Assembly: GCA_023140385.1 (NCBI GenBank)
Contig: JAGLLT010000014.1
Coordinates: 1 to 37,122, forward strand
Direction: 5' to 3'
Source: Candidatus Omnitrophota bacterium
Lineage (GTDB): Bacteria; Omnitrophota; Gorgyraeia; JAGLLT01
DNA length: 37,122 nt
This document shows, piece after piece, positions 9,580 through 37,122 of the stretch (position 1 is the first letter of the stretch; each line of letters begins with the position of its first letter). A program made the position numbers and the translations under genes. The notes beneath the pieces are model-generated. The model worked only from the letters and a program-made list of their open reading frames with translations. It was not told the origin of the DNA and ran no database searches.

Positions 9580-9589
9580 ATTTTTAATA

Positions 9590-9677: not shown

Positions 9678-9719
9678 AAATTAAATTAAAGATAAGGCAA
9701 AGTACAAACCTTTTGCGCG

Positions 9720-9820: not shown

Positions 9821-9831
9821 ATTAAATCCTA

Positions 9832-9860
9832 AATATAACATTCATTTAATAGCTTGTCAA
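9832..9860 (-). promoter_or_regulatory. Strong promoter of the tRNA-Ala/tRNA-Leu/channel transcript
   Basis: On the minus strand, TTGACA (9855-9860) and TATATT (9832-9837) are separated by 17 bp. The start point would fall a few bases before the tRNA-Ala 5' end at 9820. Confidence 0.8.
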
Positions 9861-9892
9861 CGATTTTTAACCGGAGTCTTTATCAATTTGCC

Positions 9893-9920
9893 TTGACGAT
9901 ATAGCGCTATTTATGATAAT
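9893..9920 (+). promoter_or_regulatory. Promoter of nfo-leuS
   Basis: TTGACG at 9893-9898 and GATAAT at 9915-9920 with a 16-bp spacer, divergent from the tRNA promoter. The palindrome ATAGCGCTAT (9901-9910) sits in the spacer and could be an operator. Confidence 0.55.
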
Positions 9921-9952
9921 ATAATACAAATACTTAATAGAGTTTAAATAAA

Positions 9953-10795
9953 ATGAAGTTAGGAGCTCATATATCAATCGCGGGGGGAATTTTTGAGGCT
10001 GTAGACAGGGCTCGAAAAGGTGGTTGTGATTGTATGCAGATATTCAGCCGCAGCCCCAGAGGTTGGGAGGCGCCGGCGCTCAACAGGGACGATGTTAAAG
10101 AGCTCAAGAGGAGAAGAAGAGAAGCGGGTATCACTCCTCTGGTTATACATGCTCCCTATCTGATAAATCTGGCTTCGCCGGATGAGGAGCTTTACGAAAA
10201 GTCTCTTAAGAGCTGTATAGAGGAGCTGAGAAGGGCGGATTTTTTAGGAGCGGAGTATTTTGTAACTCACCTTGGTTCGCATAAAGGTGATGGGGTTAAA
10301 GCCGGTGTCAGTAGATTTGGCGCGGCACTTAATAGGATATATAATGAGTTAAATCCCGGGGTTATGATGCTGCTTGAAAATACCGCCGGAGGCGGCAATA
10401 GCCTGGGAGGCACCTTTAGAGAAATTAATGAAGTGATGAAGGCCTCAAGGCATAAAAAAAGGCTGGGCCTGTGTTTTGATACCTGTCACGCCTATGCCGC
10501 CGGCTATGACATTGGGCACAAGAAGGGGTTGGAAGATACCCTGTCCGAGATTGATAGTTTAATGGGTTTGGATAAGTTAAAGGTGATACACCTTAATGAC
10601 TCTAAGGGTGATTTGGGTTCTCACCTTGACAGGCATGAACATATAGGGGAAGGAAGAATCGGAACAAGCGGGTTTAGGGTTATTTTAGGCCATCCGCGAT
10701 TGGAAAAGCCGGCTTATATCATTGAGACACCCGAAAAAGGCCCTGACTCCGACCCCTTGAGCATAAAAAAAATCAGGAAAATCTATGGAAGGTAG
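9953..10795 (+). CDS. nfo: Endonuclease IV (AP endonuclease)
   Basis: Zinc-dependent enzyme that nicks DNA 5' to abasic sites in base-excision repair. The 280-residue length is normal. All family metal ligands are readable: His66 (HAPY), His106 (VTHLGSH), Glu142 (LENTAG), Asp176 and His179 (DTCHAYAAGYD), His213 (HLNDS), Asp226 and His228 (DRHEHIGEG) and Glu258 (IETP). The start MKLGAHISIAGG is the conserved N-terminus. Its end overlaps the start of leuS by 11 bases, so the two are probably cotranscribed. Confidence 0.97.
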   Translation: MKLGAHISIAGGIFEAVDRARKGGCDCMQIFSRSPRGWEAPALNRDDVKELKRRRREAGITPLVIHAPYLINLASPDEELYEKSLKSCIEELRRADFLGAEYFVTHLGSHKGDGVKAGVSRFGAALNRIYNELNPGVMMLLENTAGGGNSLGGTFREINEVMKASRHKKRLGLCFDTCHAYAAGYDIGHKKGLEDTLSEIDSLMGLDKLKVIHLNDSKGDLGSHLDRHEHIGEGRIGTSGFRVILGHPRLEKPAYIIETPEKGPDSDPLSIKKIRKIYGR

Positions 10796-13283
10796 ATATC
10801 CGCACCGCGAAATAGAAAAAAAATGGCAGGAGTTTTGGCAGAAAAGTAATTTGATGAAGATGGAGCCTTCGTCAGCCAAGCCGAAGTTTTACTGCCTGAT
10901 GATGTTTCCCTACCCATCCGCTTCCCTTCACGTCGGCCATGGCAGAAACTACATTATCGGAGATGCTGTCGCCAGATTTATGAAAATGAGAGGCTATAAC
11001 GTTCTTGCCCCTATGGGCTGGGATGCTTTTGGCCTGCCGGCGGAAAACGCCGCTATCAAAAATAATGTCCACCCTAAAGATTCTACCGCCAACAATATTA
11101 AAAAAATGAAGTCTCAGTTGTATGAATGGGGCGTCCTCTATGATTGGGATAGAGAGATAAGCTCCTCCAACCCGGATTACTACAAATGGACACAGTGGCT
11201 TTTTTTAAAACTTTATCACAAAGGCCTGACTTACAAAAAGGAGGCCTCTGTCAATTGGTGTCCCGGATGCCGGACGGTACTGGCTAATGAACAGGTAATA
11301 AACGGCGCCTGCGAGAGGTGTTCTTCGCGGGTGAAACAAAAAAAGCTTAAGCAGTGGTTTTTTAAAATAACGGATTACGCCCAAAGACTACTTGATGACC
11401 TGGAACTTCTTAAGGAGTGGCCTGAGCGTGTTAAAATAATGCAGAGAAACTGGATTGGCAGGTCAGAAGGTTCCTTTATTGATTTTAAGGTTGAGGGTAT
11501 GAATAAAACTTTAAGCTGTTTCACTACCCGGCCCGACACTATTTTCGGCGCCGCCTATATGGTATTGGCGCCCGAACATCCTTTTATAAATGAGATTCTC
11601 AAGGATTTACCTGAGAAAGCAAGAATTAATGATTTTTTAGAGAAGATAAAAGGCCAGAGTAGTTTTGACAGGCAGTTTGGGCAGGTTGAAAAAGAGGGAA
11701 TCTTTAGCGGCAGGTACGTTATTAACCCCGTAAATAACGAAAAAATACCCCTTTGGATAGCCAATTATGTCCTTTTTGAATATGGTACCGGGGCTGTAAT
11801 GGCCGTACCCGCTCACGACCAGCGTGATTTTGAGTTTGCCAAAAAGTACAGCCTGAATATTAAAGTGGTTATTGATAATCCCGAATGTCATCTGGAGGCT
11901 TCATCAATGAGCCGCGCCTTTGAAGGCGAGGGCGTATTAGTAAACTCGGCGCAGTTTAATGGGATAGGTTCAAAAGAAGCTAAGGAAAAGATGGCCCTCT
12001 GGATGCAGAAAAGCAGTATGGGCAAAAAAGCCGTAAATTATAAACTGCGCGACTGGCTTATTTCGAGGCAGAGATACTGGGGAGCCCCTATCCCCATAGT
12101 GTACTGTGATAAATGCGGTATTGTGCCGGTAAAGGAGGAGAATCTGCCGGTTGAGCTGCCGTATGATATTGAGTTCAGGCCAAGCGGCGTGTCACCGCTT
12201 CAGGATAATAAAGATTTTATTAATACCGCCTGTCCCGCCTGTGGCGGCCCTGCCAGGCGCGAAGTGGATACCATGGACACCTTTGTTGACTCCAGCTGGT
12301 ATTACCTGAGATTTCTGTCGCCTGATAACGCGGAAAAGGCTTTTGATGTTGAGATGGTAAATAAGTGGCTGCCGGTTGATCAGTATATCGGAGGAGTTGA
12401 GCACGCCATTTTACATCTTTTGTACTCGAGATTTATTACCAAGGTTTTTTGTGATATGGGTTTTGTCGGTTTTAAAGAGCCCTTTGAGAGGTTATTTACT
12501 CAAGGTATGATTGTTAAGGATGGGGCCAAAATGTCTAAGTCCAAAGGCAATGTAGTCAGCCCCGATAAGTTAATCGCGGACTATGGGGCGGATACGATAA
12601 GAGTTTACACTTTGTTTATCGGCCCGCCCGAAAAGGATGCTGAGTGGAATGACCGGGCGGTTGAGGGCGCGTGGAGGTTTTTGAATAAGGTATGGAAGAC
12701 AGCCGGTTCTCTCCTTAAAAACGCGGCGCCGGAGATCAGGGATGAGAAGCTTGTTAAGAGGCTGAAGAAAAAAAACAATGAGGTAATTAAAAAAGTAACT
12801 TTGGATATGGAGGGCTCTTTTCACTTTAATACGGCCATCAGCTCTATTATGGAGTTAGTTAATAAAATAAAGAGCGTGATGGATAAACAGACAAAGATTG
12901 ACGTTGAATCGGGTTATTCCAATGAAGGTAAGAAAGACTATAAAAACCTCAAAGCGGCCATTGAATCAACTGTTATTCTTTTTTCTCCCTTCGCCCCCCA
13001 CATAGCGGAAGAGCTCTGGCAGGCCTTAGGCAATAAGCCGAGTATTTTTGAAAATAAATGGCCTGATTATGATGAGTCAGTATTGAAGGAGGGTTCTGTC
13101 TCCGTGATTATTCAGATTAACGGTAAAGTTCGTTCAAAGATAGAACTGGCCAGGGGGTCTGGCGAGGCCAGCCTGAAGACGGCCGCTCTGGAAGATGAAA
13201 CGATAAAAAATTATCTTAATAATAGAGAGATAAAGAAAATTATTGTTGTACCCGACCGGCTGGTCAATATTGTCCTTGTGTAG
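10785..13283 (+). CDS. leuS: Leucyl-tRNA synthetase
   Basis: Class I synthetase charging tRNA-Leu, one of whose tRNAs lies just upstream at 9590-9677. At 832 residues the length is typical. The HIGH motif is HVGH at 49-52 and the KMSKS loop is at 582-586. The CP1 editing domain carries TTRPDTIFGAAYMVLAPEHP and GTGAVMAVPAHDQRDFEFA. Two zinc-knuckle-like Cys clusters are present (CPGCRTVLANEQ...CERC and CDKCG...CPACGG). The WYYLRFLSPDN and GGVEHAILHLLYSRF segments are standard. The C-terminus keeps the QINGKVRSKIE domain. Confidence 0.98.
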   Translation: MEGRYPHREIEKKWQEFWQKSNLMKMEPSSAKPKFYCLMMFPYPSASLHVGHGRNYIIGDAVARFMKMRGYNVLAPMGWDAFGLPAENAAIKNNVHPKDSTANNIKKMKSQLYEWGVLYDWDREISSSNPDYYKWTQWLFLKLYHKGLTYKKEASVNWCPGCRTVLANEQVINGACERCSSRVKQKKLKQWFFKITDYAQRLLDDLELLKEWPERVKIMQRNWIGRSEGSFIDFKVEGMNKTLSCFTTRPDTIFGAAYMVLAPEHPFINEILKDLPEKARINDFLEKIKGQSSFDRQFGQVEKEGIFSGRYVINPVNNEKIPLWIANYVLFEYGTGAVMAVPAHDQRDFEFAKKYSLNIKVVIDNPECHLEASSMSRAFEGEGVLVNSAQFNGIGSKEAKEKMALWMQKSSMGKKAVNYKLRDWLISRQRYWGAPIPIVYCDKCGIVPVKEENLPVELPYDIEFRPSGVSPLQDNKDFINTACPACGGPARREVDTMDTFVDSSWYYLRFLSPDNAEKAFDVEMVNKWLPVDQYIGGVEHAILHLLYSRFITKVFCDMGFVGFKEPFERLFTQGMIVKDGAKMSKSKGNVVSPDKLIADYGADTIRVYTLFIGPPEKDAEWNDRAVEGAWRFLNKVWKTAGSLLKNAAPEIRDEKLVKRLKKKNNEVIKKVTLDMEGSFHFNTAISSIMELVNKIKSVMDKQTKIDVESGYSNEGKKDYKNLKAAIESTVILFSPFAPHIAEELWQALGNKPSIFENKWPDYDESVLKEGSVSVIIQINGKVRSKIELARGSGEASLKTAALEDETIKNYLNNREIKKIIVVPDRLVNIVLV

Positions 13284-19531: not shown

Positions 19532-19900
19532 ATGTTAAATCTTACCAAAGAAGAAAAGCTTATCACCATCTTTATTATTCTGGCCCTTATTTTAGGTATG
19601 GGCACTCTTCACTTTAAAAGGTCGATTAAGAGCCCTGATGAAAGCGCGAGCCAGCAGGATTTTAAGCGGGGCGCGGGTTTGATAGAGGAAGAAATTAAGA
19701 AGAGTAAACAGGTCAATATAAATAGAGCTGATGTAGACGAGCTTAGCAGTCTGCCGGGGGTAGGAAAAGTGATAGCCGCCAGGATCACGGCTTACCGCCT
19801 GGAGAAAGGGGATTTTATACACAGGGAAGACATTAAAAAGGTTAAGGGGATAGGAGATAAAAAATTTGAAAAGATGAGGGAATATATACTACTTAAATGA
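19532..19900 (+). CDS. comEA: ComEA-like DNA-binding protein
   Basis: 122 residues: one N-terminal membrane helix (ITIFIILALILGMGTLHF), a linker, and a C-terminal helix-hairpin-helix domain with the family signature VNINRADVDELSSLPGVGKVIAARI and IKKVKGIGDKKFEKM. It binds incoming double-stranded DNA for natural transformation. ATG 19532 is chosen; a TTG frame from 19487 would overlap the previous gene, and neither has a clear ribosome site. Its stop overlaps the comEC start as ATGA. Confidence 0.9.
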   Translation: MLNLTKEEKLITIFIILALILGMGTLHFKRSIKSPDESASQQDFKRGAGLIEEEIKKSKQVNINRADVDELSSLPGVGKVIAARITAYRLEKGDFIHREDIKKVKGIGDKKFEKMREYILLK

Positions 19901-23402: not shown

Positions 23403-23605
23403 CATTTAAATTGAGGTTTTCTATGTGATTGCGCGCAATCTCTAAGGTAAAGATTAATTAAGTTTTGATATGGGACGCCTGTTTCTCCAGCAAGAGATTT
23501 AAAATAATCAATCGTTTTCCGTTCAATTCTAATACTAATTTGCTGTTTTAGCCGTTTAACGTAAGGATTTTTTGTGGATTTTGAAAAATCATATTCTTTT
23601 CGCAT
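23396..23605 (-). CDS. brnA: BrnA-type antitoxin
   Basis: 69 residues, of the second BrnA-like kind: MRKEYDFSKSTKNPYVKRLKQQISIRIERKTIDYFKSLAGETGVPYQNLINLYLRDC. It has an N-terminal toxin-wrapping segment followed by a ribbon-helix-helix. It overlaps the end of its brnT partner by 17 bases, a standard toxin-first BrnTA operon. Its stop codon TAA is part of the attC R'' box. Confidence 0.88.
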   Translation of the reverse strand: MRKEYDFSKSTKNPYVKRLKQQISIRIERKTIDYFKSLAGETGVPYQNLINLYLRDCAQSHRKPQFKWS

Positions 23606-23879
23606 AGTATTGTTTCTCCTCCTTCTTTGTTGCTTTTCGTGCTGATATGATTCTTATTATTTCATCATTTTCTCTATAACAATGACATACTACAAGTATT
23701 CTTAAGCGCATGCTCATTCCTAAAAGCAAGAATCTATCCTCACTTTTAGAATGATCTGGATCATAGATAATTTGAGCAATATCGTCAAGAAAAACAGTCT
23801 GTGCTTCTTTAAAAGAAACCTGATGTTTCTTTTGGTTAATTTTACCCTTATTTTTATCCCAAACAAACTGTATATCCAT
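23589..23879 (-). CDS. brnT: BrnT-family ribonuclease toxin
   Basis: 96 residues with the RelE-like BrnT pattern. The N-terminus MDIQFVWDKNKGKINQKKHQVSFKEAQTVFLDD leads into RFLLLGMSMRLRILVVCHCYRENDEIIRIISARKATKKEE. BrnT cleaves mRNA and arrests growth until neutralised by BrnA. The KHQVSF and RIISARKA motifs place it clearly, and unlike the copy at 22886-23101 it is intact. First gene of its cassette, about 80 bases from the attC at 23957-24052. Confidence 0.88.
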   Translation of the reverse strand: MDIQFVWDKNKGKINQKKHQVSFKEAQTVFLDDIAQIIYDPDHSKSEDRFLLLGMSMRLRILVVCHCYRENDEIIRIISARKATKKEEKQYYAKRI

Positions 23880-23956
23880 AATAATTATACCATAATTATA
23901 AAATAATTACCACATTAAGTCAATAAATAGTTTTTTTATGATTTTTCTATTTTATC

Positions 23957-24052
23957 GTCATAACGGTTGAACTAAGCCGCGTGGGAATTAACATAAATCA
24001 GCTTTCTGCCACAAGCGCTTATTCCACGTCGGCTTCAGTGATTTGTTATCTG
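23957..24052 (-). repeat. attC site 3
   Basis: Plus-strand ends GTCATAAC (23957-23964) and GTTATCTG (24045-24052). The stem is AAGCCGCGTGGGAA / TTCCACGTCGGCTT, complementary except for extra bases in each arm, the classic imperfect attC stem. TAACGGTTGAACTAAGCCGCG resembles the reverse of well-known attC sites such as that of aadA cassettes (from memory). The stop codon of the next gene lies in R''. Confidence 0.88.
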
Positions 24053-24546
24053 GGAATATTAATAGGTTTTTCTTTCAGCACCTTTATTTTCAAACTTCTT
24101 ATCTTATCTTCGTCTTCAGATACATATTCAATATTTGTTTCTTTTTTACCATTTATTGTTTTTTTAACGACTTTGCATGAAATGCCATTTTCTTCTAATA
24201 GAGATATAAAATATTTATTTTGTTCCTCTGTGATAAATGAAATATTTGAAGGAAGCTGCTCCCCATTTTCTTCATAAATATCTTTGATTAAAGTTCTAAC
24301 CATTTTACTGTATTGGGATTCCCAAGCTATATAATCATTTCCGTCTTTATCAAATTGCTCCACGGTATATGGGATATTATTTTGTTTTAATAAATTGACT
24401 AGTTTTGTTTGTCTTTCAACATCTGAGAAATGAATATTGGGGTTTGGTTGTTTAATCTCATTATAGATAGATGGCGGTTTTTTACATGAAATTATAAACA
24501 CCATACTCAACAAAGAAACCATTAAAAATATTTTATTTCTTTTCAT
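24046..24546 (-). CDS. Cassette-borne lipoprotein, unknown function
   Basis: 166 residues from ATG 24546; the frame opens at GTG 24573, but that falls within the neighbouring attC and would put nine polar residues before the signal. The signal is MKRNKIFLMVSLLSMVFIISC with Cys21 lipidated. The mature part has two similar halves: LVNLLKQNNIPYTVEQFDKDG and FISLLEENGISCKVVKKTING. Each has a helix followed by a strand, suggesting a duplicated small alpha/beta unit such as SPOR- or DUF2007-like folds; no family is claimed. It fills one cassette between two attC sites. Confidence 0.75.
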   Translation of the reverse strand: MKRNKIFLMVSLLSMVFIISCKKPPSIYNEIKQPNPNIHFSDVERQTKLVNLLKQNNIPYTVEQFDKDGNDYIAWESQYSKMVRTLIKDIYEENGEQLPSNISFITEEQNKYFISLLEENGISCKVVKKTINGKKETNIEYVSEDEDKIRSLKIKVLKEKPINIPR

Positions 24547-24553
24547 CTTTTTA

Positions 24554-24633
24554 CAAATAACATTTAAACTCACCTGCCTTTGAGCGCGCCGTTTTCGGCG
24601 CGGGAAAAGGCAGGTGTAGTGCGTTGTTATAGG
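24554..24633 (-). repeat. attC site 2
   Basis: Plus-strand ends CAAATAAC (24554-24561) and GTTATAGG (24626-24633). A long stem: CACCTGCCTT/AAGGCAGGTG (10 bp), then CGCGCCG/CGGCGCG (7 bp) around TTTT, with unpaired bases between. Its R'' box CCTATAAC exactly complements GTTATAGG at the right end of the same cassette (25069-25076), 440 bases away. Confidence 0.88.
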
Positions 24634-24644
24634 TTATTTATATT

Positions 24645-25061
24645 TTAATCATGCTTCAAATGTCCAATTAGTTCTTTGTTTGTATCGGGGTATAGGATCT
24701 TCACCTTATAGTTATCTACATTTACTAGACAAGACCAGAAAAGTCTACTTCCAAGCAGATCTTTCTGAATGAAATGCAATATTTGGTGTCTCTGTTTTCC
24801 GAATTCATCATCCTCCGTTAATCTGTAATTTCCTATCAATTCAATGTGTCCCGTTGAGGACAACCCTAATTCTATTACAAGATAATGTTCTATCTCTTTT
24901 TTAGTATGGTTATCAATTTTTTTCCATGCTACTTCCAGTTTTTTGTCTGCCCCATAAGAAATAATGCTTTTCTCATTTTTTGTTTCTGCCAAGGTTTTGT
25001 TAGCAGCAGTGATAAATAAGCAAAGACATATAAACGTTATTGATAATATTTTTTTCTTCAT
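24645..25061 (-). CDS. Cassette-borne exported protein, unknown function
   Basis: 138 residues. The signal peptide is MKKKILSITFICLCLFITAANKTLAE with a likely cleavage after LAE or TLA. The mature part alternates charged strands (KLEVAWKKIDNHTKKEIEHYLVIELGLSSTGHIELIGNYR) and ends LIGHLKHD. No family recognised. GGAG lies 8 bases before the ATG. It stops 12 bases from attC 24554-24633 and starts 8 bases from the 25069 site, so it exactly fills a cassette. Confidence 0.75.
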   Translation of the reverse strand: MKKKILSITFICLCLFITAANKTLAETKNEKSIISYGADKKLEVAWKKIDNHTKKEIEHYLVIELGLSSTGHIELIGNYRLTEDDEFGKQRHQILHFIQKDLLGSRLFWSCLVNVDNYKVKILYPDTNKELIGHLKHD

Positions 25062-25068
25062 TTTTTCT

Positions 25069-25119
25069 CCTATAACAATTAATATACGGAATCCGTATTT
25101 TTTTGAAACTACGTTATTG
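25069..25119 (-). repeat. attC-like site 1 (right end of array)
   Basis: Plus-strand ends CCTATAAC (25069-25076) and GTTATTG (25113-25119) around stem ATACGG/CCGTAT with loop AAT. At about 51 bases it is short for an attC; it could be a degenerate attC or a secondary site. Its left end is strongly supported as a cassette junction by the perfect match to the next attC's R''. No gene is seen in the cassette that would belong to it (25120-25203). Confidence 0.6.
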
Positions 25120-25203
25120 TTTTAATAGGAATGTTGCCAATCACTCCTGATGTATTTATGTTTATTGTATGATGGTTCATTCAGCGACGTACCTTTAATA
25201 TTA

Positions 25204-25232
25204 ATTATTTCATTTTTAACAACTTTTGTCAA
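25204..25232 (-). promoter_or_regulatory. Promoter reading into the cassette array (Pc-like)
   Basis: On the minus strand TTGACA (25227-25232) and AATAAT (25204-25209) are 17 bp apart. It lies outside the last attC and points into the array, where an integron's cassette promoter would be. Divergent from the PilZ promoter, whose -35 begins 8 bp away. Confidence 0.6.
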
Positions 25233-25240
25233 TGAATAAC

Positions 25241-25270
25241 TTGACAAAATAGGAGCTTTTGTGGTATATT
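25241..25270 (+). promoter_or_regulatory. Promoter of the PilZ gene
   Basis: TTGACA (25241-25246) and TATATT (25265-25270), spacer 18. The 13-mer GTGGTATATTAAA around the -10 recurs exactly at the next promoter (25778-25790). A 5' leader of about 90 bases follows, holding two predicted hairpins (25309-25329 and 25337-25354); the second pairs CCTTTT with AAAAGG of the ribosome site. Confidence 0.7.
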
Positions 25271-25365
25271 AAATTTACAATGTTAACGCGCTCGCTTACC
25301 TAATGATCCCGTTCTTGGGGAGAATGGGACATATTGCCTTTTTCGACCAAAAGGAGAGATTGTGT

Positions 25366-27274: not shown

Positions 27275-28237
27275 ATGAACGCGGTTTATCTGTTAGCGGG
27301 AGAAGACGAATACTTAAGAGAAGCGGCCATAAAAGATATCAAGCATAAAGTTTTTAAAGGAATAAAGAGCCGCCAAGGATTTAATTATAAGATTTTTTAT
27401 GGTGAAAATGTTAGAGCGCGGGAGATAGTTGACCGCGCTCGTTCTTTTGATTTCCTCGCGGGGCGGCAGTTAATTTTAGTCAGGAATTTTAATATTCTCA
27501 CTCCTTCCGATAAGAAAAATATCCTTAACTACTCAAAGAATCCCAGCGAATTTACGGTTCTTATGCTCGAGGCCGTGGGCAAAATAAATCTAAAAAAGGA
27601 TGTTTATAAAGAAATACACGATTATTCAAAGTTTATTAATTGCGGTAAACCTTTAGCTTCATCTATGGCCGGCTGGATTGTTAAACTTGCCGCCAGCAGA
27701 AAAAAACGAGTAGAGGCTGCCGCCGTCCAGTTGTTAAAGATGAGATTAGGCAGCGACCTTCGCGCCTTAGATAGCGCCCTTGAAAAATTATCTTTATACG
27801 CTGGTACCAGGGAAAATATTACCGCAAAGGACATAGAGGCGACAATCGGGTTTGATGTTAGTTACTCCGCTTTTAATTTTTCTGATGCCGTTACAAGAAA
27901 GGCGCCTCAGGAAGCGTTAAGGATAATTAAAAGCCTGGTTTTTAATAAAGGAGACGCGGTAAAGCTTATAGGAATGATAGCCTGGCAGTTTGAGAGGATA
28001 ATCAAGGCCAAAAGGATGCTTGATGAGGGAGTATCCGCGCGGGATACGGCCGGCCGGCTGAACATTCACAGTTTTTTTATAGAAAAATTTATGAGCCAGG
28101 TGAAAAGTTTTGATGGGCCTTCTATAAAGAAATCACTCACGTATATAATAGAGGCAGACCTGGCTATGAAAACGGGCAAGACAGAGTCAAAAATTATTCT
28201 TGAGTCTCTTGTTTTTAGGTTGTGCTCGCTGAGGTAA
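27275..28237 (+). CDS. holA: DNA polymerase III delta subunit
   Basis: 320 residues from ATG 27275 (MNAVYLLAGEDEYLREAAIKDIKHK), preceded by AGAAGGGG; the frame opens 171 bases earlier inside lptE, but that part is unlike the family. Delta is the wrench of the clamp loader that opens the beta clamp. Typical pieces are the N-terminal GEDEYL, ARSFDFLAGRQLILVRNF, the domain II LGSDLRALDSALEKLSLYAG, IEATIGFDVSYSAFNFSDAV and the C-terminal LIGMIAWQFERIIKAKRML. The last 23 bases overlap the convergent rpsT. Confidence 0.92.
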   Translation: MNAVYLLAGEDEYLREAAIKDIKHKVFKGIKSRQGFNYKIFYGENVRAREIVDRARSFDFLAGRQLILVRNFNILTPSDKKNILNYSKNPSEFTVLMLEAVGKINLKKDVYKEIHDYSKFINCGKPLASSMAGWIVKLAASRKKRVEAAAVQLLKMRLGSDLRALDSALEKLSLYAGTRENITAKDIEATIGFDVSYSAFNFSDAVTRKAPQEALRIIKSLVFNKGDAVKLIGMIAWQFERIIKAKRMLDEGVSARDTAGRLNIHSFFIEKFMSQVKSFDGPSIKKSLTYIIEADLAMKTGKTESKIILESLVFRLCSLR

Positions 28238-28493
28238 GGCTGTTGAGCTTTTTCATTAAGCGGGAGGACTTTCTGCTGACCTTTTTTTTATGAATAATTT
28301 TCTTAGAAGCAGCCTTGTCCAGTTTGGTAATGTAGGTTTTAAGATAACTTTTGGCCTCATCCAGCTTCTTTTCGCCCAATAAAGCCTTCATTGTTTTGTC
28401 TCTGGTCTTCAATTCTGAGCGGACTGCTTTATTTCGCGTATGTTTTATTTTATTCTTTTTTAAGTCTTTTATGGCAGATTTTCTAGTTGGCAT
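28215..28493 (-). CDS. rpsT: Ribosomal protein S20
   Basis: 92 residues, strongly basic, MPTRKSAIKDLKKNKIKHTRNKAVRSELKT, then an Ala/Lys-rich helical body and KKIIHKKKVSRKSSRLMKKLNSL. It binds 16S rRNA early in 30S assembly. AAGGAGAT lies before the ATG. The holA-rpsT pairing, here convergent, is common in bacteria. In some bacteria S20 represses its own translation; no such element could be identified here. Confidence 0.95.
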   Translation of the reverse strand: MPTRKSAIKDLKKNKIKHTRNKAVRSELKTRDKTMKALLGEKKLDEAKSYLKTYITKLDKAASKKIIHKKKVSRKSSRLMKKLNSLTSASTT

Positions 28494-28568: not shown

Positions 28569-28590
28569 CCTAAAACAAACTGTGCCGGTG

Positions 28591-28762
28591 TTATTTTAAA
28601 AGAGATAAGGAGCGTTGGCCTCAAGCCTTACAAGAGCCTGCTCAGAAGGCTTGGGGCTATCAACCGGGTGAAAAGGCAGGATTAAAAGAATTAAGAGAGG
28701 CAGAGTTGATAGATGAAAAAACGGCCCGCGGCATTATTGAGTACTTTAAAAAACTGCACTGA
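28591..28762 (+). pseudogene. 3' fragment of an unidentified gene
   Basis: An open frame without any ATG, GTG or TTG start upstream reads LKRDKERWPQALQEP, then AWGYQPGEKAGLKELREAELIDEKTARGIIEYFKKLH and TGA. The composition looks like real protein. It lies just outside the left direct repeat of the island. I do not recognise the family. The remaining 28763-28875 stretch shows no gene. Confidence 0.4.
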
Positions 28763-28875
28763 AACGTAACCCCTATCCTTTTATTATTCCCTGCCATAGG
28801 GTTATTAAGTCAGACGGCAGTCCGGGAGGCTATATTTTTGGCAAAAGAAAGAAAAAACTACTTAAACTGGAACAA

Positions 28876-28951
28876 AAGTTTTTAAAAGACTGTTTTTGAA
28901 ATATACTTGCAAAACAAGTCTTATGCTATATAATGATATAAAGTATATATA
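28876..28951. repeat. Left copy of 76-bp direct repeat, contains a promoter
   Basis: Matches 34393-34468 at 74 of 76 positions (C/T at 28890 and G/A at 28925 differ). It contains TTGCAA (28907-28912), 16-bp spacer and TATAAT (28929-28934), plus the inverted repeat ACTTG-CAAAA-CAAGT over the -35. This copy would drive the KAP NTPase gene. The 18-codon frame at 28989-29045 (MVIKLIDALGINIDELVR) between it and the KAP gene resembles the tail of an XRE-type regulator. Confidence 0.85.
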
Positions 28952-29048
28952 TCGTATCAAGCAGAAATTGAAACACCTCAAAAACGAGATGGTTATCAAG
29001 CTAATTGATGCTTTAGGAATTAATATAGATGAATTAGTGAGGTAAAGT

Positions 29049-32000
29049 ATGAATAAAATAGATAAAAAAGAAATCGAATATAATTTTTTAATTGATAAAC
29101 CAGTAGAAGATGGCGAGGAATTGAAATTTGGGCATTATGAGCTTGGAGAAACCCTTGTCGATATAGTTAGAAAATGTAAAACTCCATTCACCATAGGATT
29201 ATTTGGTAGGTGGGGTAGTGGGAAAAGTACATTAGCACACTTTCTGCGAGCAGAATTACAAACGCGAAAAATTCCTGTAATTATTTTTGATGTATGGAAG
29301 CACGAAAAAGATAACATATTAAGACGAGCATTTCTAAAAGAATTAGTTTCACAATTAAAAGAAGAATATGGACGCAAAAAAATAAACAAAGATATTTTTG
29401 AAATCGGTGATGATAGGTTTGAGATAAACGATAGGATTGATTCCGCAATTACCAAAAATAATGAAGGTAAAATTAAAATAAATTGGGAAAAAGTAAAACA
29501 AGCACGGGAAATTTTAGTACTGTTTGTATTAATAGGATTACTAATTGCCATTATTCCATCTTCCATATTAACTAGCTGGAGGATGTTTTGGACTATTTTA
29601 TCATGGATGATATCACTAGTTTTTGGAGGCACTGTCCTAATTTGGCTACTTAAAATTACTACAACATTCTTTTATACAGAAACCACAACAATTGGGCGTG
29701 ACCGCTTTCAAGATCCATCAGAGTTTGAGAAAGAATTTAAAAGGATTCTTGAAGCAATCAGGAAAGATTATGAAAAGATATTAATTGTTTTCGATAATAT
29801 CGATAGGGTATCTAGCGATAAAGCATTAGAAGTTTTATCTGCAATAAAAACTTTTCTTGAACCAGATAAGAAAGTAATGAAGAGAGACGTTGTATTTCTT
29901 GTTCCATGCGATGCACAAGCATTGCGCAAGCATATTATGGACATATATCAAGTTGAAAATACTAGTGCCTATGATCCGGATGAATTTTTAAGAAAATTCT
30001 TTAGTACCACAATTCGCATACCAGATTTTTTTGTTACAGAAATGGAACTATATGTGAGAAGTAAACTTGAAAATACGAATGTTGCTCATTTTAATAACGA
30101 TCTTATCTCTGCCTTAATCACTATAGCATTTCGAGATAATCCTAGGCAAGTTATTCAATTTATCAATGTATTGTTAGCGAGCTATTTACTTATTTTACAC
30201 CGATGTGGAGAAAATGAAGACTTTGACTCAGATTTCTTGGACAAAAGAACTCCTGAGTTGTGTCGCTACCTATTGTTAGAAAGTCGCTTTCCAGCGATTA
30301 TGGAAAAAATCAAGGAAAAGAATATCTATGATGTTGATTCTGTAGATATTCAGCAACTAAAGAATATGGGGCTTGAAGACAAAAATAGTATATTCGATAA
30401 ATTTATTGATATCAAAAAACGGACTGTAAACTTGGCGCCCTTGAAAAATGCGCGTATCTTTTATACAATGCGCCGCTCAAATGAAGAAAAGGAATTCTCT
30501 GGCATAAACGATTTCTTTATAGCTCTTGAAGAACAAGAAAGCGAAAGCGCACAAGGTTTCATTAAAGGTATTGATAACTTTCAAAAGAAAAGACCGTCAT
30601 TGTCTAGGTTAATAAGCGATCGCTTAGAAAAAATTACCAATCCTATAATGAAGGCAAGATTTATTGACTCATTACTTTCTGTTCTTTATAAGGAGAAGAA
30701 GGACTTAGAAGAAAGTACTGTTTCTTCCATTTATACAGCAACAGAAAATTTGGAATTGATGTGCCTAATATATATCCAACCTAATGTTTTTGCAGAAATA
30801 ATGTTGAAGCACAAAAAAGAGTGGAGAAGGCCGACATTTGATAGATGGATATCAATAATCTCTAAAAAGACAGAAGAAGATAAGCAGGAGAAAATATCTG
30901 ATGATTTTATGGAAATATTGCTATCAGTATTCATTTCCCGCATAGGGTGGCTTACTCAACAGCAGATAAGCAAAGTGGTGAAGAATATTGTGCAACCAGT
31001 ATTTTTTATGCCTTCCTCAGGAAAGTTACTTACGGCCAATTTAGGAATTCAGGATCAACTCGTATCAGAAGATTATGTTAGAGGATTCATTGAAAATATG
31101 ACTACAGGCGATATAACGCAGGAGATACCTGAGAATATCAAAATAGTTACTAAATTTAAAGACAAATTCTTCACAGAAAATACAAGTAACGAGTTATTAA
31201 GAAAGTTTACAGAAATTTTAAAAGAAGCACAAGAAGGAATAGAAATTTCAGATTTTTTAGAAAACGAAAAAGGAATACCAAGCAAAAATGTCTATATGCA
31301 TCTAAATAAATTAATGTTAGAAAAAAAAGATATTTTTTCAAAAGTTGATGATAAACCTCTTTGGAATGATGTGCTCGATGATATAAATGAATTAAACTCC
31401 TCAACGGATACTAACAATAGAAAGATTTTTATGCCTTTATGCTTTTCGCTATGGCTTGTAGTACCTGATGGCATAAAAAATCAATTAGAAACTTACATAT
31501 CAGATTTTATACAACAGGCATCCTTAGAGAGTGTTAAATATTTTATATCTAATAGTGGAAATCAGATTTTGTCAGAAGGTGAAGAGTTTATGGAGGGTTT
31601 AGAGAATCAAGCACTGCAAGATGACGATTATTTTAATTATTTATATAATGAGTTTTATAAAGATCCAGATTTAAAATACAATATTCTAATAAAGCTTATC
31701 AACACCGACTTAATGAGTGCTTTATCAAAAATTAAATCCGAACACGCAAATCTACCTAAAAAGGCAGATGTTATCAATAAAATACTAGATAAGTTTGACA
31801 ATACGTCCAACCAAGATAAATCGGAAATAATTGAAATCTGCAACTTAACAAAATGTGCAAAAAATACAGTCCTTAGAGATAAACTAGGAGAAAAAATTAA
31901 GACTTTATTAACACAACCTAACAAAGAACAACAAGTTATTATGCAGGGGGTGGCTAGTAAACTAAACTATTTCGGTGATAAAAAACTGCGTCAGATAAGC

Positions 32001-32309
32001 ACAGATATATTTGATTGGATAAAGCATCAAGGACTAGCAGGGAGTTATCATGTAGTACCAATTACATTTATTTATGATTTGAAACAACTTACCGCTGAAG
32101 AGTTAAACGAACTTCCGTATTATATTTTCCAGATTTTGAGAACTAGCAATGATCCGGCGGAGCTTGAATTGGCTAAAGATGTTTTACTTAAAGTTAAACC
32201 GAAGCGCAAAGATAAACAACAGGAGTTAACTGACATAGAAGGTAGGATAGAAGCTGAGGGTAATGACACTATAAAACAAATCTTACGCCAAGTACTTGAT
32301 GCAGTATAA
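29049..32309 (+). CDS. KAP-family P-loop NTPase with membrane insertion
   Basis: 1086 residues. The Walker A motif is GRWGSGKST at 53-61, followed by the KAP-typical FDVWKHEKD (80-88). Two membrane helices at about 154-172 and 181-201 are inserted before Walker B (ILIVFDNIDRV, 244-253); this insertion defines the KAP family. The nucleotide domain continues to about 400 (FLRKFFSTTIRIPDF, DNPRQVIQFINVLL). The remaining 650 residues are helical and look like repeats, plausibly a sensor. KAP proteins include the phage-excluding PifA of plasmid F. Inference: membrane-anchored, STAND-like anti-phage ATPase. GAGGTAAAG precedes the ATG. Confidence 0.85.
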   Translation: MNKIDKKEIEYNFLIDKPVEDGEELKFGHYELGETLVDIVRKCKTPFTIGLFGRWGSGKSTLAHFLRAELQTRKIPVIIFDVWKHEKDNILRRAFLKELVSQLKEEYGRKKINKDIFEIGDDRFEINDRIDSAITKNNEGKIKINWEKVKQAREILVLFVLIGLLIAIIPSSILTSWRMFWTILSWMISLVFGGTVLIWLLKITTTFFYTETTTIGRDRFQDPSEFEKEFKRILEAIRKDYEKILIVFDNIDRVSSDKALEVLSAIKTFLEPDKKVMKRDVVFLVPCDAQALRKHIMDIYQVENTSAYDPDEFLRKFFSTTIRIPDFFVTEMELYVRSKLENTNVAHFNNDLISALITIAFRDNPRQVIQFINVLLASYLLILHRCGENEDFDSDFLDKRTPELCRYLLLESRFPAIMEKIKEKNIYDVDSVDIQQLKNMGLEDKNSIFDKFIDIKKRTVNLAPLKNARIFYTMRRSNEEKEFSGINDFFIALEEQESESAQGFIKGIDNFQKKRPSLSRLISDRLEKITNPIMKARFIDSLLSVLYKEKKDLEESTVSSIYTATENLELMCLIYIQPNVFAEIMLKHKKEWRRPTFDRWISIISKKTEEDKQEKISDDFMEILLSVFISRIGWLTQQQISKVVKNIVQPVFFMPSSGKLLTANLGIQDQLVSEDYVRGFIENMTTGDITQEIPENIKIVTKFKDKFFTENTSNELLRKFTEILKEAQEGIEISDFLENEKGIPSKNVYMHLNKLMLEKKDIFSKVDDKPLWNDVLDDINELNSSTDTNNRKIFMPLCFSLWLVVPDGIKNQLETYISDFIQQASLESVKYFISNSGNQILSEGEEFMEGLENQALQDDDYFNYLYNEFYKDPDLKYNILIKLINTDLMSALSKIKSEHANLPKKADVINKILDKFDNTSNQDKSEIIEICNLTKCAKNTVLRDKLGEKIKTLLTQPNKEQQVIMQGVASKLNYFGDKKLRQISTDIFDWIKHQGLAGSYHVVPITFIYDLKQLTAEELNELPYYIFQILRTSNDPAELELAKDVLLKVKPKRKDKQQELTDIEGRIEAEGNDTIKQILRQVLDAV

Positions 32310-32532
32310 ATTTTGTCAATGAGATAAAGGAAGCCCGCCCGGCTGTGACTGCCGGAGAAAATTTAAGCTGTAACCACATAGCAAACCCATTACCTATTTG
32401 TAACAGACCCTGTGAGAAGAAAGGAATTCAAAAAAACAAGTAAAAATAATTTCTGCTTGTACCTACTTTAGCCAGTGCATGTATATCAAAACAATTAAAT
32501 TAATCCTACGAAATATCAGTAGACTTATTTGG
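32310..32532. other. Intergenic gap between convergent island genes
   Basis: A 43-codon frame without a start codon (32312-32443) reads VNEIKEARPAVTAGENLS and later ICNRPCEKKGIQKNK. It looks like protein and may be a gene remnant. No clear terminator; a small CCGGC/GCCGG stem lies near 32354-32370 without a T-run. Confidence 0.35.
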
Positions 32533-33537
32533 TTAAATTACAAAATTTGTTTCCTTTATGATTTGGTAAACACCCTTAATGCCAATTAAATTTATTGGGG
32601 TTTTACCTATTCCCTTTGCTTCGCTAATTGCGCTTGATGTAAAATGACTTGTTGAAATAATTACTCCGAAGCTATTAAATCCTAAGCTTCCTCTTAAATT
32701 TGCTATTTCTTTTCTTCCAACAGAATGTTTCCATCTTTTTACTTGAAATTGATAATTTAAATCTAAACTAAATCTATGCCTTAAAAAAGCGCTGATATCA
32801 ATACCATCATCACCGCTCTTTTTAGTTACTTTTACATCTATAAATCCAGTATGTTCAATTAGTTTAGCCATTAAACCTTCAAATTCATAGGGATTAATGG
32901 TTAGCAAGTTTTTCTTTAAGGCCTCAATGCTTTTTAATGTTTCTTCGGTTAGTTTTGGTAATATTTTTTCTTTTTCGGGTTTTTCTAGAATTACAGAATC
33001 AATAAGGGTATCTTCTGGTAAAATATCTTTCTTAAATTGGCTGTATAAAGGCAAAAAAGGTTTTGCAAAATCTCCGATTTTTAAAATTGGAATATCTGAA
33101 TAAATCTGGAATTCAAAAATCCATACTTTTCTCAAATTGCTTTGATTATCTATTTGATAATCCTGATAATGTCTTAATAAAAATAAAAAGCCGATAAATT
33201 TATATTGACTAATGCCTTCTTTTATAAATCCTAATATTGGAATGGGAGTTTCCATTTGCTCAACAATTCTTTTATTGACCCCTGATATTTCTTGATCTCC
33301 TTTTAATCCTGCTCCAGTGTATGTTAAAATATCCCCTTCAATTTTATCTGCGTATGGATTTCGTGTGGTATTTTTGTTTTCTTCAGCAGAGGTAATTAGA
33401 ACTATAAAATCAAGCTCTTTATTTTTTAGTTTTGGTCTAATTCCACCTAAATTAGAAACCTCCAGCGCATATTTAATTTGATCATTGTTGTAATGTTCAC
33501 CTATTTTCAATATCTCAGGAACAACAAATTTTTTCAT
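32533..33537 (-). CDS. Mrr-like restriction endonuclease with N-terminal putative modified-DNA reader
   Basis: 334 residues. The C-terminal part (about 212-334) is an Mrr-type PD-(D/E)xK nuclease: NPYEFEGLMAKLIEHTGF with Glu220, SGDDGIDISA with Asp247, and YQFQVKRWK with the Gln265-x-Lys267 pair, then FGVIISTSHFTSSAISEA. The N-terminal part (about 1-145) includes GDILTYTGAGLKGDQE, reminiscent of SRA/YDG-like readers in McrA-type enzymes, then strands and a linker. This points to type IV restriction of modified DNA; the reader assignment is inference. AGGAAAT precedes the ATG. The 64-residue gene at 33540 ends 2 bases upstream. Confidence 0.8.
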   Translation of the reverse strand: MKKFVVPEILKIGEHYNNDQIKYALEVSNLGGIRPKLKNKELDFIVLITSAEENKNTTRNPYADKIEGDILTYTGAGLKGDQEISGVNKRIVEQMETPIPILGFIKEGISQYKFIGFLFLLRHYQDYQIDNQSNLRKVWIFEFQIYSDIPILKIGDFAKPFLPLYSQFKKDILPEDTLIDSVILEKPEKEKILPKLTEETLKSIEALKKNLLTINPYEFEGLMAKLIEHTGFIDVKVTKKSGDDGIDISAFLRHRFSLDLNYQFQVKRWKHSVGRKEIANLRGSLGFNSFGVIISTSHFTSSAISEAKGIGKTPINLIGIKGVYQIIKETNFVI

Positions 33538-33539
33538 AC

Positions 33540-33734
33540 TTATTTCCTAGCAAAAGATAAGGTGTTTTTTTGATGGATTGAAATCGTATAACCTCTTACA
33601 GTTAAAATTTTTTCTAGAACTAACAATCTAATTAATGTTCTCGCACAATAATTATCGAAATTTTGTTCCGATTCATACTCAGAGAATACTTTTCTGTATT
33701 CTGCTAACAATTTTCTATTAGATAGACTTTTCAT
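33540..33734 (-). CDS. Small hypothetical protein upstream of the Mrr-like nuclease
   Basis: 64 residues, MKSLSNRKLLAEYRKVFSEYESEQNFDNYCARTLIRLL and VRGYTISIHQKN, mostly helical and basic, no signal or membrane segment. It ends 2 bases before the nuclease start, so the two form an operon. No ribosome site is obvious. It could be a specificity, regulatory or immunity partner; the family is not recognised. Confidence 0.55.
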   Translation of the reverse strand: MKSLSNRKLLAEYRKVFSEYESEQNFDNYCARTLIRLLVLEKILTVRGYTISIHQKNTLSFARK

Positions 33735-33806
33735 AATTGGGAAGAAGCAACCTCCAAAACTAAACCGCCTGGACCGCAGAAAAGTTCTCCAAATTTAAAA
33801 GCAATT

Positions 33807-33840
33807 ATTTTATTGCCGGTTCTTTTGGGGGGCAATAAAA
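33807..33840 (-). promoter_or_regulatory. Candidate promoter with an inverted repeat over both core elements
   Basis: On the minus strand TTGCCC (33830-33835) and TAAAAT (33807-33812), 17-bp spacer, 72 bases before the small gene. A perfect 10-bp inverted repeat TTTTATTGCC/GGCAATAAAA (33808-33817, 33831-33840) places one arm on each element, as expected for a dimeric repressor. On the plus strand it is also followed by six Ts after CTG, so a terminator is an alternative reading. Confidence 0.45.
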
Positions 33841-33968
33841 CTGTTTTTTAAAAGCGGTTGTGTCTGCATATTTAGTACCTTCGGCCTATTTAAAATAATT
33901 ATAGCAGAAAACAGTATGAAATGAAACCGAAAAAATGCACAGAAAAGTATCCCAGCTTGCTCTGATAA

Positions 33969-34226
33969 TTAATCGCTATAGAGTGTACAGCCTACCTCAA
34001 AACCCATCTTTTCGAGCTGTCGGTGGGCAGCGGTTGTGATAAATGTTGAACGGCCGATTTTCAACGTTTCAGCCAGTGCCTGTTTAGCCGGGAATCGTTT
34101 TCCATGAACCATTATGTAATATGTATTGACCCTTTCTGGTGAAACGTTTTTTAACGCCTGCTCAACATCTTTCTTTGAGCAGGTATACGGTTTTCCATTT
34201 AGACTAAAAGAAATAGCTTTTGCCAT
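33969..34226 (-). CDS. Small protein resembling a restriction-enzyme DNA-head domain
   Basis: 85 residues. The core MVHGKRFPAKQALAETLKIGRSTFITTAAHRQLEKMGFEV has the GKxYPxKQ...GxxRxxFxTxxAxxxLxxLGF pattern I associate with N-terminal DNA-recognition heads of McrA-like and other modification-dependent restriction proteins. That attribution is from memory. A perfect AGGAGG lies 8 bases before the ATG. It has its own promoter (34275-34302) and is separated from the nuclease operon by 230 bases. Confidence 0.65.
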   Translation of the reverse strand: MAKAISFSLNGKPYTCSKKDVEQALKNVSPERVNTYYIMVHGKRFPAKQALAETLKIGRSTFITTAAHRQLEKMGFEVGCTLYSD

Positions 34227-34274
34227 TTGTATACCTCCTTTTTATATTTACCAATTACTATTACAACTACTACT

Positions 34275-34302
34275 ATTATACCTATTATCTTTAGGATGTC
34301 AA
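34275..34302 (-). promoter_or_regulatory. Strong promoter of the 85-residue gene
   Basis: On the minus strand TTGACA (34297-34302), 16-bp spacer, TATAAT (34275-34280): both hexamers match consensus exactly. Confidence 0.8.
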
Positions 34303-34392
34303 GGAAAATATTGGAAGCTTTCCCGCGTTTACTGCAAGGATTTCTTGCAACAAATTGATTATCAATAGGTTCGAAAAAACTGCTTAAAATAG

Positions 34393-34468
34393 AAGTTTTT
34401 AAAAGATTGTTTTTGAAATATACTTGCAAAACAAGTCTTATACTATATAATGATATAAAGTATATATA
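34393..34468 (+). repeat. Right copy of 76-bp direct repeat, promoter of the helicase gene
   Basis: Contains TTGCAA (34424-34429), 16-bp spacer and TATAAT (34446-34451), with ACTTG-CAAAA-CAAGT (34422-34436) over the -35. Transcription would start near 34458, 57 bases before the helicase ATG. See the left copy at 28876. Confidence 0.85.
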
Positions 34469-34514: not shown

Positions 34515-37122
34515 ATGAAAAAGCAGGATATTTTAAATAATCTAAACCCCGAACAAAAGAAAGCGGTTATTCATGACAAGGGGCCGCTTTTGATTATTGC
34601 CGGGGCCGGGACCGGCAAGACAAGAGTTATTACCAGAAGAATTGCCTATCTTATAGCCTCTAAAAGAGCGGAACCCCAGCAGATTTTAGCCTTAACCTTT
34701 ACCGATAAGGCTGCCGCCGAGATGGAAGAAAGAGCGGATGTTTTAGTTCCCTATGGATACGCGGACATCTGGGTGAGTACCTTTCATGCTTTTGGGGAGA
34801 GGGTGCTGAGCGAGAAGGCGCTTGAAATAGGCATGGACTCCAACTTCAAGGTTTTGACTAAAGCTGAGCAGATAATTTTTATCAAGGAGCGTCTCTTTGA
34901 ATTTCCTATGAACTATTACCGGCCCCTGGGCAACCCGGACAGTTTCATCAAGGCTCTGGTGAGTGTTTTTTCAAGAGCCCGCGACGAGGATGTAAGCCCC
35001 GAGGAGTATCTGGCCTATGCCGAAAAGTTAAAGAAGAAGTTAAAAAAAGAGCCCGGCAATCGGGAATTAGGCGAACTGGCCAAAAAGGAGGAAGAAGTCG
35101 CTCTTTGCTATCAGAAGTATCAGGAATTGAAGTCAAAAGAAGGGATGATTGATTTCGGAGACCAATTTTTTCTGACACTCAAAATACTGAGAAAACACCC
35201 CACGATATTAAGCGAGTATCAGCAAAGGTTTAAATATATCCTGGTTGATGAATTTCAGGATACTAATTATGCCCAGTTTGAACTGGTTAAACTGCTGGCG
35301 GGAGGCCACGGAAACCTGACGGTTTCAGCTGATGATGACCAGTCTATATATAAATTCAGAGGAGCGGCTATTAGCAACGTACTGGGTTTTTTGGATACCT
35401 ATCAGGATGCCAAAAAGGTGGTTATTACAGAAAATTACCGTTCGTCCCAGCCGATTTTAGATTGTGCCTACAGGTTGATAGAGCACAATAACCCCGATCG
35501 CCTGGAAGTAAAGGCGGGAATTGACAAGAGGCTAAAGGGGATAAGCAAAAAAGGCCCTCTTCCCAGGCATCTTTATTATGACACCTTATCTCATGAAGCG
35601 GATGCTGTCAGCGAACTTATAAAGGAAAAGATTGATAAGGGCAAGTATACTTATCAGGACTTTGCCATTTTGGTGCGTTCTAACAATGACGCTGAGCCTT
35701 TTCTGCAGGCTATGAATATGAAGGCTATACCATGGCGTTTTAGCGGCAATCAGGGGCTTTACTCGCGGCCTGAAATTCGCCTGGCGACCGCTTTTTTTAG
35801 AGTTCTCTCTAATCTGTCGGATTCTGTCAGCCTCTTTTACCTGGCAAGTTCGCAGATTTATAAGGTCAAGATGGAAGCCTTAACCCTCTTTATGAATTAC
35901 GCCCGGAGAAGAAATAGTTCTCTTTATAGCGTATTTAAAGAAGCGGATAATCTAGCTTCCTTTATAAACGTTGAGGCTGAAGAAGCGGATAAAATAAAGC
36001 GGTTTTTGAATGATATCGATAAGTTTCTTGAAGCCTCCCGGAATTTACCCGCGGGCAACGTGCTCTATATGTTTTTAAGCGAAACAGGTTACCTCAATTA
36101 CCTCACAAAACAAGAGAACCAGGATAGTGAAGACAAAATTAAAAATCTCTCCAAGTTCTTTGAGATAGTAAAAAATTTTAGCAGTCTGACCGAGAAAGAC
36201 AGAGTGCCTATGTTCGTTTCGCATCTGGACCTGTTGATTAATAGCGGAGACGACCCGGCTGTGGTTGAAGCCGATCCGGATATACCGGCGGTCAATGTTT
36301 TAACGGTGCATAAAGCTAAGGGGCTTGAATTTCCGGTGGTTTTTTTGGTGAGCCTGGTTATGGGTAAGTTTCCCTGGCCGAGAAGGCGGGAGGCCATCAG
36401 GCTTCCTGATGATTTGGTAAAGGATATTCTGCCGGTGAGTGACTTTTATCTTCAGGAGGAGAGGCGGCTTTTTTACGTAGCTATGACCAGAGCCAAGAAA
36501 GAACTTTTTATGATGAGTTCGAGGGATTATGGAGGCAAGCGCCCGCGAAAAGTATCTATTTTTGTGCTGGAAGCTCTGGACTTGCCTAAGGCAGACTTTG
36601 AACCGTATAAGTCAAACGCCCTCGAGACAATAAAGAGGCATACTCCGCGGGCCGATAGCCCGGAAGCAAAGAAGACGGAGATAGCGGATGATAAAATCAT
36701 TAACCTAAATGCCTATAAGATGGATGACTACCTGACCTGTCCCCTGAAATACAAGTACATTCATATATTGGGAGTGCCTATTTTTAGACACCATACTGTA
36801 ATTTATGGTAAAATTTTACATGATGTTGTCGGCGAATACTTTCAAAATAAAATGAACAAAAAAAAGATTACGCTGGATAATTTACTTGCTTTTTATGAAA
36901 AGATATGGATAAATGAAGGTTATCTGACAAAGGCCCACGAGAAGGAGCGTTTTAACACGGGGCGCGAAACGATTAGAAATTTTTTTGAAAGGGAAGAGAA
37001 GATTAAGAAACTTCCCACCTGTATTGAAGAACCCTTTAAGATTATTTTGAACAAAGACAGGATTTCCGGCAGGTTTGACCGGCTGGATGAAGAGGGGGAT
37101 GAGGCGGTAATTATTGATTACA
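34515..37122 (+). CDS. UvrD/PcrA-type helicase with C-terminal RecB-like nuclease domain (3' end missing)
   Basis: Open from ATG 34515 to the window edge, 869 codons without a stop. Superfamily 1A helicase motifs in order: AGAGTGKT (29-36), LTFTDKAAAEM, VSTFHAFG, VDEFQDT (about 244-250), SADDDQSIYKFRGA, ENYRSS, VLTVHKAKGLEFPVVF, and FYVAMTRAKKELFM. After a linker comes DYLTCPLKYKY and ILHDVVGEYF, then SGRFDRLDEEGDEAVIIDY at the edge, the start of a PD-(D/E)xK active site as in AddB/RecB/Cas4. So this is a helicase-nuclease for double-strand break processing, possibly AddA-like. The ribosome site is weak (GGTTACGG). Confidence 0.9.
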   Translation, partial: MKKQDILNNLNPEQKKAVIHDKGPLLIIAGAGTGKTRVITRRIAYLIASKRAEPQQILALTFTDKAAAEMEERADVLVPYGYADIWVSTFHAFGERVLSEKALEIGMDSNFKVLTKAEQIIFIKERLFEFPMNYYRPLGNPDSFIKALVSVFSRARDEDVSPEEYLAYAEKLKKKLKKEPGNRELGELAKKEEEVALCYQKYQELKSKEGMIDFGDQFFLTLKILRKHPTILSEYQQRFKYILVDEFQDTNYAQFELVKLLAGGHGNLTVSADDDQSIYKFRGAAISNVLGFLDTYQDAKKVVITENYRSSQPILDCAYRLIEHNNPDRLEVKAGIDKRLKGISKKGPLPRHLYYDTLSHEADAVSELIKEKIDKGKYTYQDFAILVRSNNDAEPFLQAMNMKAIPWRFSGNQGLYSRPEIRLATAFFRVLSNLSDSVSLFYLASSQIYKVKMEALTLFMNYARRRNSSLYSVFKEADNLASFINVEAEEADKIKRFLNDIDKFLEASRNLPAGNVLYMFLSETGYLNYLTKQENQDSEDKIKNLSKFFEIVKNFSSLTEKDRVPMFVSHLDLLINSGDDPAVVEADPDIPAVNVLTVHKAKGLEFPVVFLVSLVMGKFPWPRRREAIRLPDDLVKDILPVSDFYLQEERRLFYVAMTRAKKELFMMSSRDYGGKRPRKVSIFVLEALDLPKADFEPYKSNALETIKRHTPRADSPEAKKTEIADDKIINLNAYKMDDYLTCPLKYKYIHILGVPIFRHHTVIYGKILHDVVGEYFQNKMNKKKITLDNLLAFYEKIWINEGYLTKAHEKERFNTGRETIRNFFEREEKIKKLPTCIEEPFKIILNKDRISGRFDRLDEEGDEAVIIDY

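Follow-up and report, generated by a model that had tools for sequence, protein, structure and literature searches.

A defence-type gene island between duplicated copies of the ogt-uvrD junction in a Candidatus Omnitrophota genome

In a genome of a Candidatus Omnitrophota bacterium (assembly GCA_023140385.1, here G000), a small island of defence-type genes lies between two direct repeats that consist of the host's own sequence. This is a real insertion scar: the cargo of the island is ordinary, the manner of its insertion less so. We favor, with a probability of about 0.6, an insertion between ogt and uvrD that duplicated 96–101 bp of the target and in which the KAP gene of the island captured the promoter of uvrD. 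Throughout, the window refers to the entire analyzed stretch of 37,122 nucleotides (contig JAGLLT010000014.1).

The repeat pair

The 76-nt core of the repeat (28876-28951 and 34393-34468) is identical at 74 positions, as the initial annotation had it, and the homology reaches slightly further to the left, so that the full copies occupy positions 28851..28951 (101 nt) and 34373..34468 (96 nt), both on the forward strand. These align with 5 substitutions and a single gap of 5 nt, a match far beyond chance (E = 4e-34), with exact common stretches of about 34 nt (the longest) and 26 nt. Both copies contain the promoter TTGCAA-16-TATAAT (-35 and -10 elements at 28907-28912 and 28929-28934 in the left copy, and at 34424-34429 and 34446-34451 in the right one), with an inverted repeat, ACTTGCAAAACAAGT, over the -35 element, again as originally described. 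In the relatives G002 and G003, only ACTTGCAAAA remains of the inverted repeat; given this lack of conservation, an operator function is unlikely, and a conserved operator was rejected. The right copy and the start of uvrD are separated by 46 nt, and the left copy lies upstream of the KAP gene and points toward it, positions that fit the earlier proposal that the right copy drives the helicase gene and the left one faces KAP.

The repeat is present in exactly two copies in the 1.5-Mb genome, and none was found in 59 relatives, save for one 30-nt partial match. The many stand-alone copies that would speak against a link to this locus are thus missing from the genome. A mobile or multi-copy element was rejected on the same count, along with the lack of plasmid copies (blastn) and of exact matches to the core in viral contigs.

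The host site

The island is anchored on the left by rpsT (ribosomal protein S20; 28215..28493, reverse strand), which is 90% identical to its counterpart in the genus-mate G001, 70% in G002 and 66% in G003, and has a conserved neighborhood. The right anchor is a gene for a UvrD-type helicase (34515..37121, forward strand; PF00580, E 1.6e-77), which shares 70% identity with its G002 counterpart and 69% with that of G003 and continues past the contig end. Between rpsT and the left repeat lie the remnants of two genes, both on the forward strand. One is the 3' part of uvrC (28590..28762), frameshifted and with the 5' part deleted, of which two frame fragments match the C-terminus of the G003 UvrC (scores of 62 and 84 against shuffle maxima of 46 and 44). 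The other is the 3' end of ogt/MGMT (28768..28899), with 56% identity to the MGMT of G006 (E 6e-11; alignment score of 118 against a shuffle maximum of 46). The ogt frame extends into the left repeat and terminates there, at the TGA at 28897, so that each repeat copy comprises the ogt 3' end, with a 5-nt deletion in the right copy, followed by the uvrD promoter. The native upstream side (ogt) runs unbroken into the left copy, as the right copy does into uvrD, which bears out the initial suggestion that an insertion duplicated the helicase promoter.

Relatives in the family lack the island and have one promoter, in the gene order rpsT-uvrC-uvrD or rpsT-uvrD; the former order is found in the Candidatus Kappaea frigidicola record JAVCCI010000014.1, taken as G003, and in G006, the order is uvrC-ogt/MGMT-uvrD. 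The check proposed at the outset, a search for relatives with a single copy and no island, was answered by G002 and G003, each of which has one promoter and lacks the island. In G001, rpsT is followed by the intact start of uvrC and then by the contig end; because this contig ends inside uvrC, the nearest single-promoter examples belong to another genus.

The fate of uvrC itself is a separate observation. This nucleotide excision repair gene is present in 55 of the 59 related genomes and absent from G000, where a second uvrC was not found anywhere in the genome, and from G002. The G002 version is an in-frame fusion of the first and last codons, and the G000 version is the frameshifted 3' tail; apparently, the gene was lost twice independently within one family.

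The cargo and its foreign origin

The 5.4-kb insert has a GC content of about 0.32 compared with about 0.40 in the flanks, and the drop is restricted to about 28.9-34.5 kb. Elsewhere in the window, a second AT-rich patch (23500-25300) contains a BrnT toxin gene (23589-23879, reverse strand) and two ORFs that belong to no family.

At the left edge of the insert is the C-terminal fragment of an XRE-type helix-turn-helix (HTH) gene (28944..29045, forward strand) that leads into KAP. The gene is cut inside the HTH, and the fragment starts where the left repeat ends, in a TATATATA run that is common to the target; this shared run suggests microhomology at a putative illegitimate joint. The HTH_3 score of the fragment is 15.1 bits, under the 23-bit cut-off, and an XRE gene at L093 in the same genome was rejected as its source, similarity being absent. 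Against the XRE protein encoded upstream of KAP in G051, the fragment scores 51, which exceeds all 2000 shuffles. In that genome (locus L047), a complete XRE gene (461-658) precedes the KAP NTPase gene (1459-4692), and the arrangement in the window is likely a truncated form of this pair.

The KAP-family P-loop NTPase itself (29049..32309, forward strand; 1086 aa) matches PF07693 with E 2.9e-28, above the cut-off, and KAP matches are found in 4 of the 384 Omnitrophota genomes searched, G000 included. On the reverse strand, the Mrr-type restriction endonuclease (32533..33537; PF04471, E 5.6e-21, 75.3 bits against a cut-off of 21; PADLOC PDC-S02, E 8.6e-23) contains the Mrr catalytic domain that defines type IV (Mrr-like) restriction endonucleases, with a GIDI...QVK motif readable in the sequence. 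Its N-terminus weakly matches RE_AspBHI_N, a domain that reads modified DNA (19.6 bits, cut-off 27), and is possibly AspBHI-like; the other 383 Omnitrophota genomes searched contain no relatives of this protein. Two small ORFs follow, both on the reverse strand: one of 64 aa (33540..33734), with no family match in the Pfam, NCBIfam and PADLOC scans, and one encoding an 85-aa SCO5918-like protein (33969..34226; NF038312, E 4e-7, 30.1 bits under a cut-off of 60) with 40% identity to actinobacterial plasmid ORFs. The latter is faced by a promoter of its own, TTGACA-16-TATAAT (34275..34302, reverse strand), that matches the consensus at 12 of 12 positions. The initial view that the island came under host control could accordingly hold at most for KAP, which can use the captured left promoter and presumably would be transcribed from it, and not for the other three ORFs, which lie on the opposite strand.

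An NTPase of the KAP family adjoining an Mrr nuclease is reminiscent of defence islands with QatA-type KAP and type IV Mrr proteins. Unlike in QatA-type islands, KAP scores far under the QatA cut-off (62.9 bits against 600), and QatB, QatC and QatD have no match among the island ORFs scanned; the Qat anti-phage system was rejected. KAP, Mrr and the 85-aa protein were not found in viruses, and no island genes were detected in G001 (only 85% complete), G002 or G003; two short DNA matches in G001 and G003, which cover 25-31 nt of the Mrr gene, were not counted as homologues. With its foreign composition, the block appears to be a horizontally acquired, AT-rich set of defence-type genes with a patchy distribution in the phylum.

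The divergence of the two repeat copies gives an indication of age. They show 5 mismatches over 96 aligned sites, whereas a comparison of G000 with G001 gives 51 differences over 286 four-fold sites (bamD, lptE, holA and rpsT), a contrast with P = 2.6e-4, or 0.004 without the promoter core. If the copies were initially identical and have evolved neutrally, the insertion probably postdates the split of the two species; this dating fails if they were different alleles already at the time of joining, as they may have been.

A likely route of insertion

Under the favored scenario, a 5.4-kb AT-rich defence-type block would have entered the host sequence between the decaying ogt and uvrD, with duplication of the 96-101 bp of target that comprise the ogt 3' end and the uvrD promoter. 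The right copy would leave uvrD with an intact promoter, and the left copy, joined to the middle of the XRE gene of the insert, would read directly into KAP; promoter capture via illegitimate recombination has an experimental precedent (PMC11111574). The joining might consist of two offset illegitimate joints, made for example by template switching in replication or by the filling-in of a staggered break into which foreign DNA had been taken up; such fill-in is documented for eukaryotic breaks (PMC8355091). We infer this chemistry from its products: two offset joints would explain the long target duplication, the arbitrary targets and the truncated gene at the edge.

Most likely, the joining was recombinase-free. 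None of the island ORFs contains an integrase, transposase or relaxase domain detectable in the Pfam, NCBIfam, PADLOC and PHROGs scans, although a recombinase could have been present once and since lost. Ku (PF02735) is encoded in none of 59 genomes, including G000, with a positive Bacillus subtilis control, which makes classical bacterial non-homologous end joining unlikely, and Ku-dependent end joining was rejected as the insertion route. The reverse event is possible: as proposed initially, recombination between the repeats would, in principle, excise the island and restore one promoter. It is constrained by identical stretches of at most about 34 nt that lie 5.5 kb apart, and no excision enzyme was found.

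Similar scars elsewhere

Sampled stretches of several genomes, a small set of mostly draft sequences with one non-Omnitrophota control, were scanned for direct repeats 50-250 nt long that share at least 85% identity, lie 0.3-15 kb from each other and occur exactly twice in the sample. Two-copy repeats (52-228 nt) around gene blocks number 8 in 686 kb of G000, the window included, and 3 in 302 kb of G002. There are 4 two-copy repeats in 400 kb of G026, one of them within a single large ORF and not counted as an insertion. None was found in 400 kb of G040 or in 300 kb of Escherichia coli K-12, where the hits are families of 11-15 copies and were excluded. Genes at these loci that are named here without a Pfam result were recognized by eye from the protein sequence.

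At several of the scars, which clearly resemble gene-end insertions, the repeated sequence is one end of a host gene that is still intact, namely ilvD, topA, ilvC or that for endonuclease V. In G000 (contig C30, L086), the repeat is the 5' end of ilvD (first 47 codons, 143 nt; 12594-12736 and 19724-19866): an ilvD fragment remains beside the native upstream gene and, after a 7-kb insert with secretion and signalling genes (a GspE-type ATPase, a pilin-like protein, a histidine kinase and response regulators), ilvD restarts behind a new ribosome-binding site. The site is uninterrupted in G001, where ilvD adjoins the upstream gene. In G026, an 82-nt repeat with the first 22 codons of topA (L123, 17505-17586 and 19346-19427) flanks two ORFs that are followed by topA; dprA adjoins topA in G040, although G026 has extra genes between dprA and the scar. 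Also in G026, small inserts lie between copies of the 3' ends of ilvC (L119, 2761-2830 and 3239-3308) and of the endonuclease V gene (L125, 7736-7821 and 9730-9815); the insert ORFs at these three G026 loci have no Pfam matches. Another G000 locus (contig C10, L066) holds two interleaved repeat pairs, at 8617-9963 and 9825-11720: one, a perfect 68-nt repeat from a YwbE-like gene, encloses a DUF4153 gene, and the other, of 69 nt and with GTAGTCAAGTCGAGACTTGACCCC, flanks nucleotidyltransferase-like genes. Finally, a promoter-like 59-nt direct repeat in contig C18 of G000 (L074, 8489-8547 and 10856-10914) encloses 2.3 kb of AT-rich inserted DNA, with a DNA/RNA non-specific endonuclease among its products. 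Not every repeat pair is an insertion scar of this type, and this 59-mer and the Pho-box-like repeats of L060 may instead be regulatory sequence common to both sites.

No recombinase domain was found in the insert proteins tested from the scar loci. Recurrence of the scar across G000 and a distant relative points to recurrent gene gain without an obvious recombinase. Tentatively, and against our own leaning, some Omnitrophota lineages might gain genes by a route that is independent of both recombinases and Ku and duplicates about 60-140 bp of the target, the island in the window being one of several products.

Alternative explanations

The main rival is a Campbell-type event, in which a circular DNA with the island and a related strain's allele of the ogt-uvrD promoter segment entered the chromosome by recombination with its one copy, leaving diverged copies on both sides. 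This would account for the difference of about 5% between the copies and for the position of 3 of the 4 differences in the ogt part at third codon positions, as between functional alleles (a weak signal, with a chance of about 0.11); insertion of a circular product is also the model that the authors preferred for the genic flanking repeats in Arabidopsis (PMC2869330). With such a circle, the island-promoter junction would still have had to arise, only in another strain, and we consider this origin improbable. A circle opened inside XRE was rejected: it should have left the N-terminal half of the gene beside the right repeat, where none is seen.

Islands are often bounded by a copy of a gene 3' end that makes the target gene whole again. 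A site-specific integrative element with the ogt 3' end and promoter as its att site and a since-lost integrase gene would share this common boundary, and the left copy does retain the ogt stop codon in frame. Nevertheless, the ORFs include no integrase, transposase or relaxase, the left edge cuts the XRE gene, and the other scars involve unrelated targets and different gene parts, unlike the product of one integrase with one att site, so that this origin appears still less probable than the circle. Illegitimate tandem duplications occur in bacteria and may capture promoters (PMC11111574), but duplication of a larger unit of island plus promoter with subsequent loss of the first island copy requires both an earlier insertion and a precise later deletion, and the left copy is still in register with the native upstream sequence; this we regard as very improbable. 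Equally little weight falls on an assembly chimera of strains with and without the island. The draft state of the genome (57 contigs) and the exact stretches shared by the copies would permit one, but the copies are distinct (5 substitutions and one indel), contamination is 0.16%, and the same architecture is found in the single-contig genome G026.

Relation to known systems and significance

Several known systems come close to the favored reading, insertion with target duplication. Transposed genes of Arabidopsis lie between direct repeats, mostly genic, that are homologous to their target site, and a relative retains the uninterrupted target (Woodhouse 2010, PMC2869330). The island likewise sits at a new site between target-derived repeats, with an uninterrupted relative, but the plant genes relocate within a genome whereas here foreign multi-gene blocks are involved, in bacteria. 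E. coli offers a case of promoter capture (PMC11111574 and references therein) in which, similarly, a transferred gene gains a promoter through a duplication that involves no long homology; the outcome there is a tandem duplication, whereas at this locus the insert splits the duplicated segment. Integrase-driven islands with att repeats similarly have direct repeats and a duplicated gene end that frame the insert, with a single site in relatives, but differ from the present case, which combines the lack of a recognizable recombinase with a truncated cargo gene at the edge and unrelated targets in the same genome. Insertion sequences and transposons encode a transposase and make a short target duplication of fixed size; here there is no transposase and the duplication is about 100 nt long.

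The settling of foreign genes beside core genes in bacteria with no evident integrase is poorly understood. A long target duplication spares the host gene or promoter and offers the newcomer a promoter, and would thus be a low-cost way of gaining accessory or defence genes. If the proposed route exists in these lineages, an interrupted gene or promoter would be restored, and incoming genes would be able to adopt the host promoter. The scar is easily searchable, so that its frequency, choice of targets and dependence on lineage can be tested across genomes, and its recurrence in the lineage is the aspect worth following.
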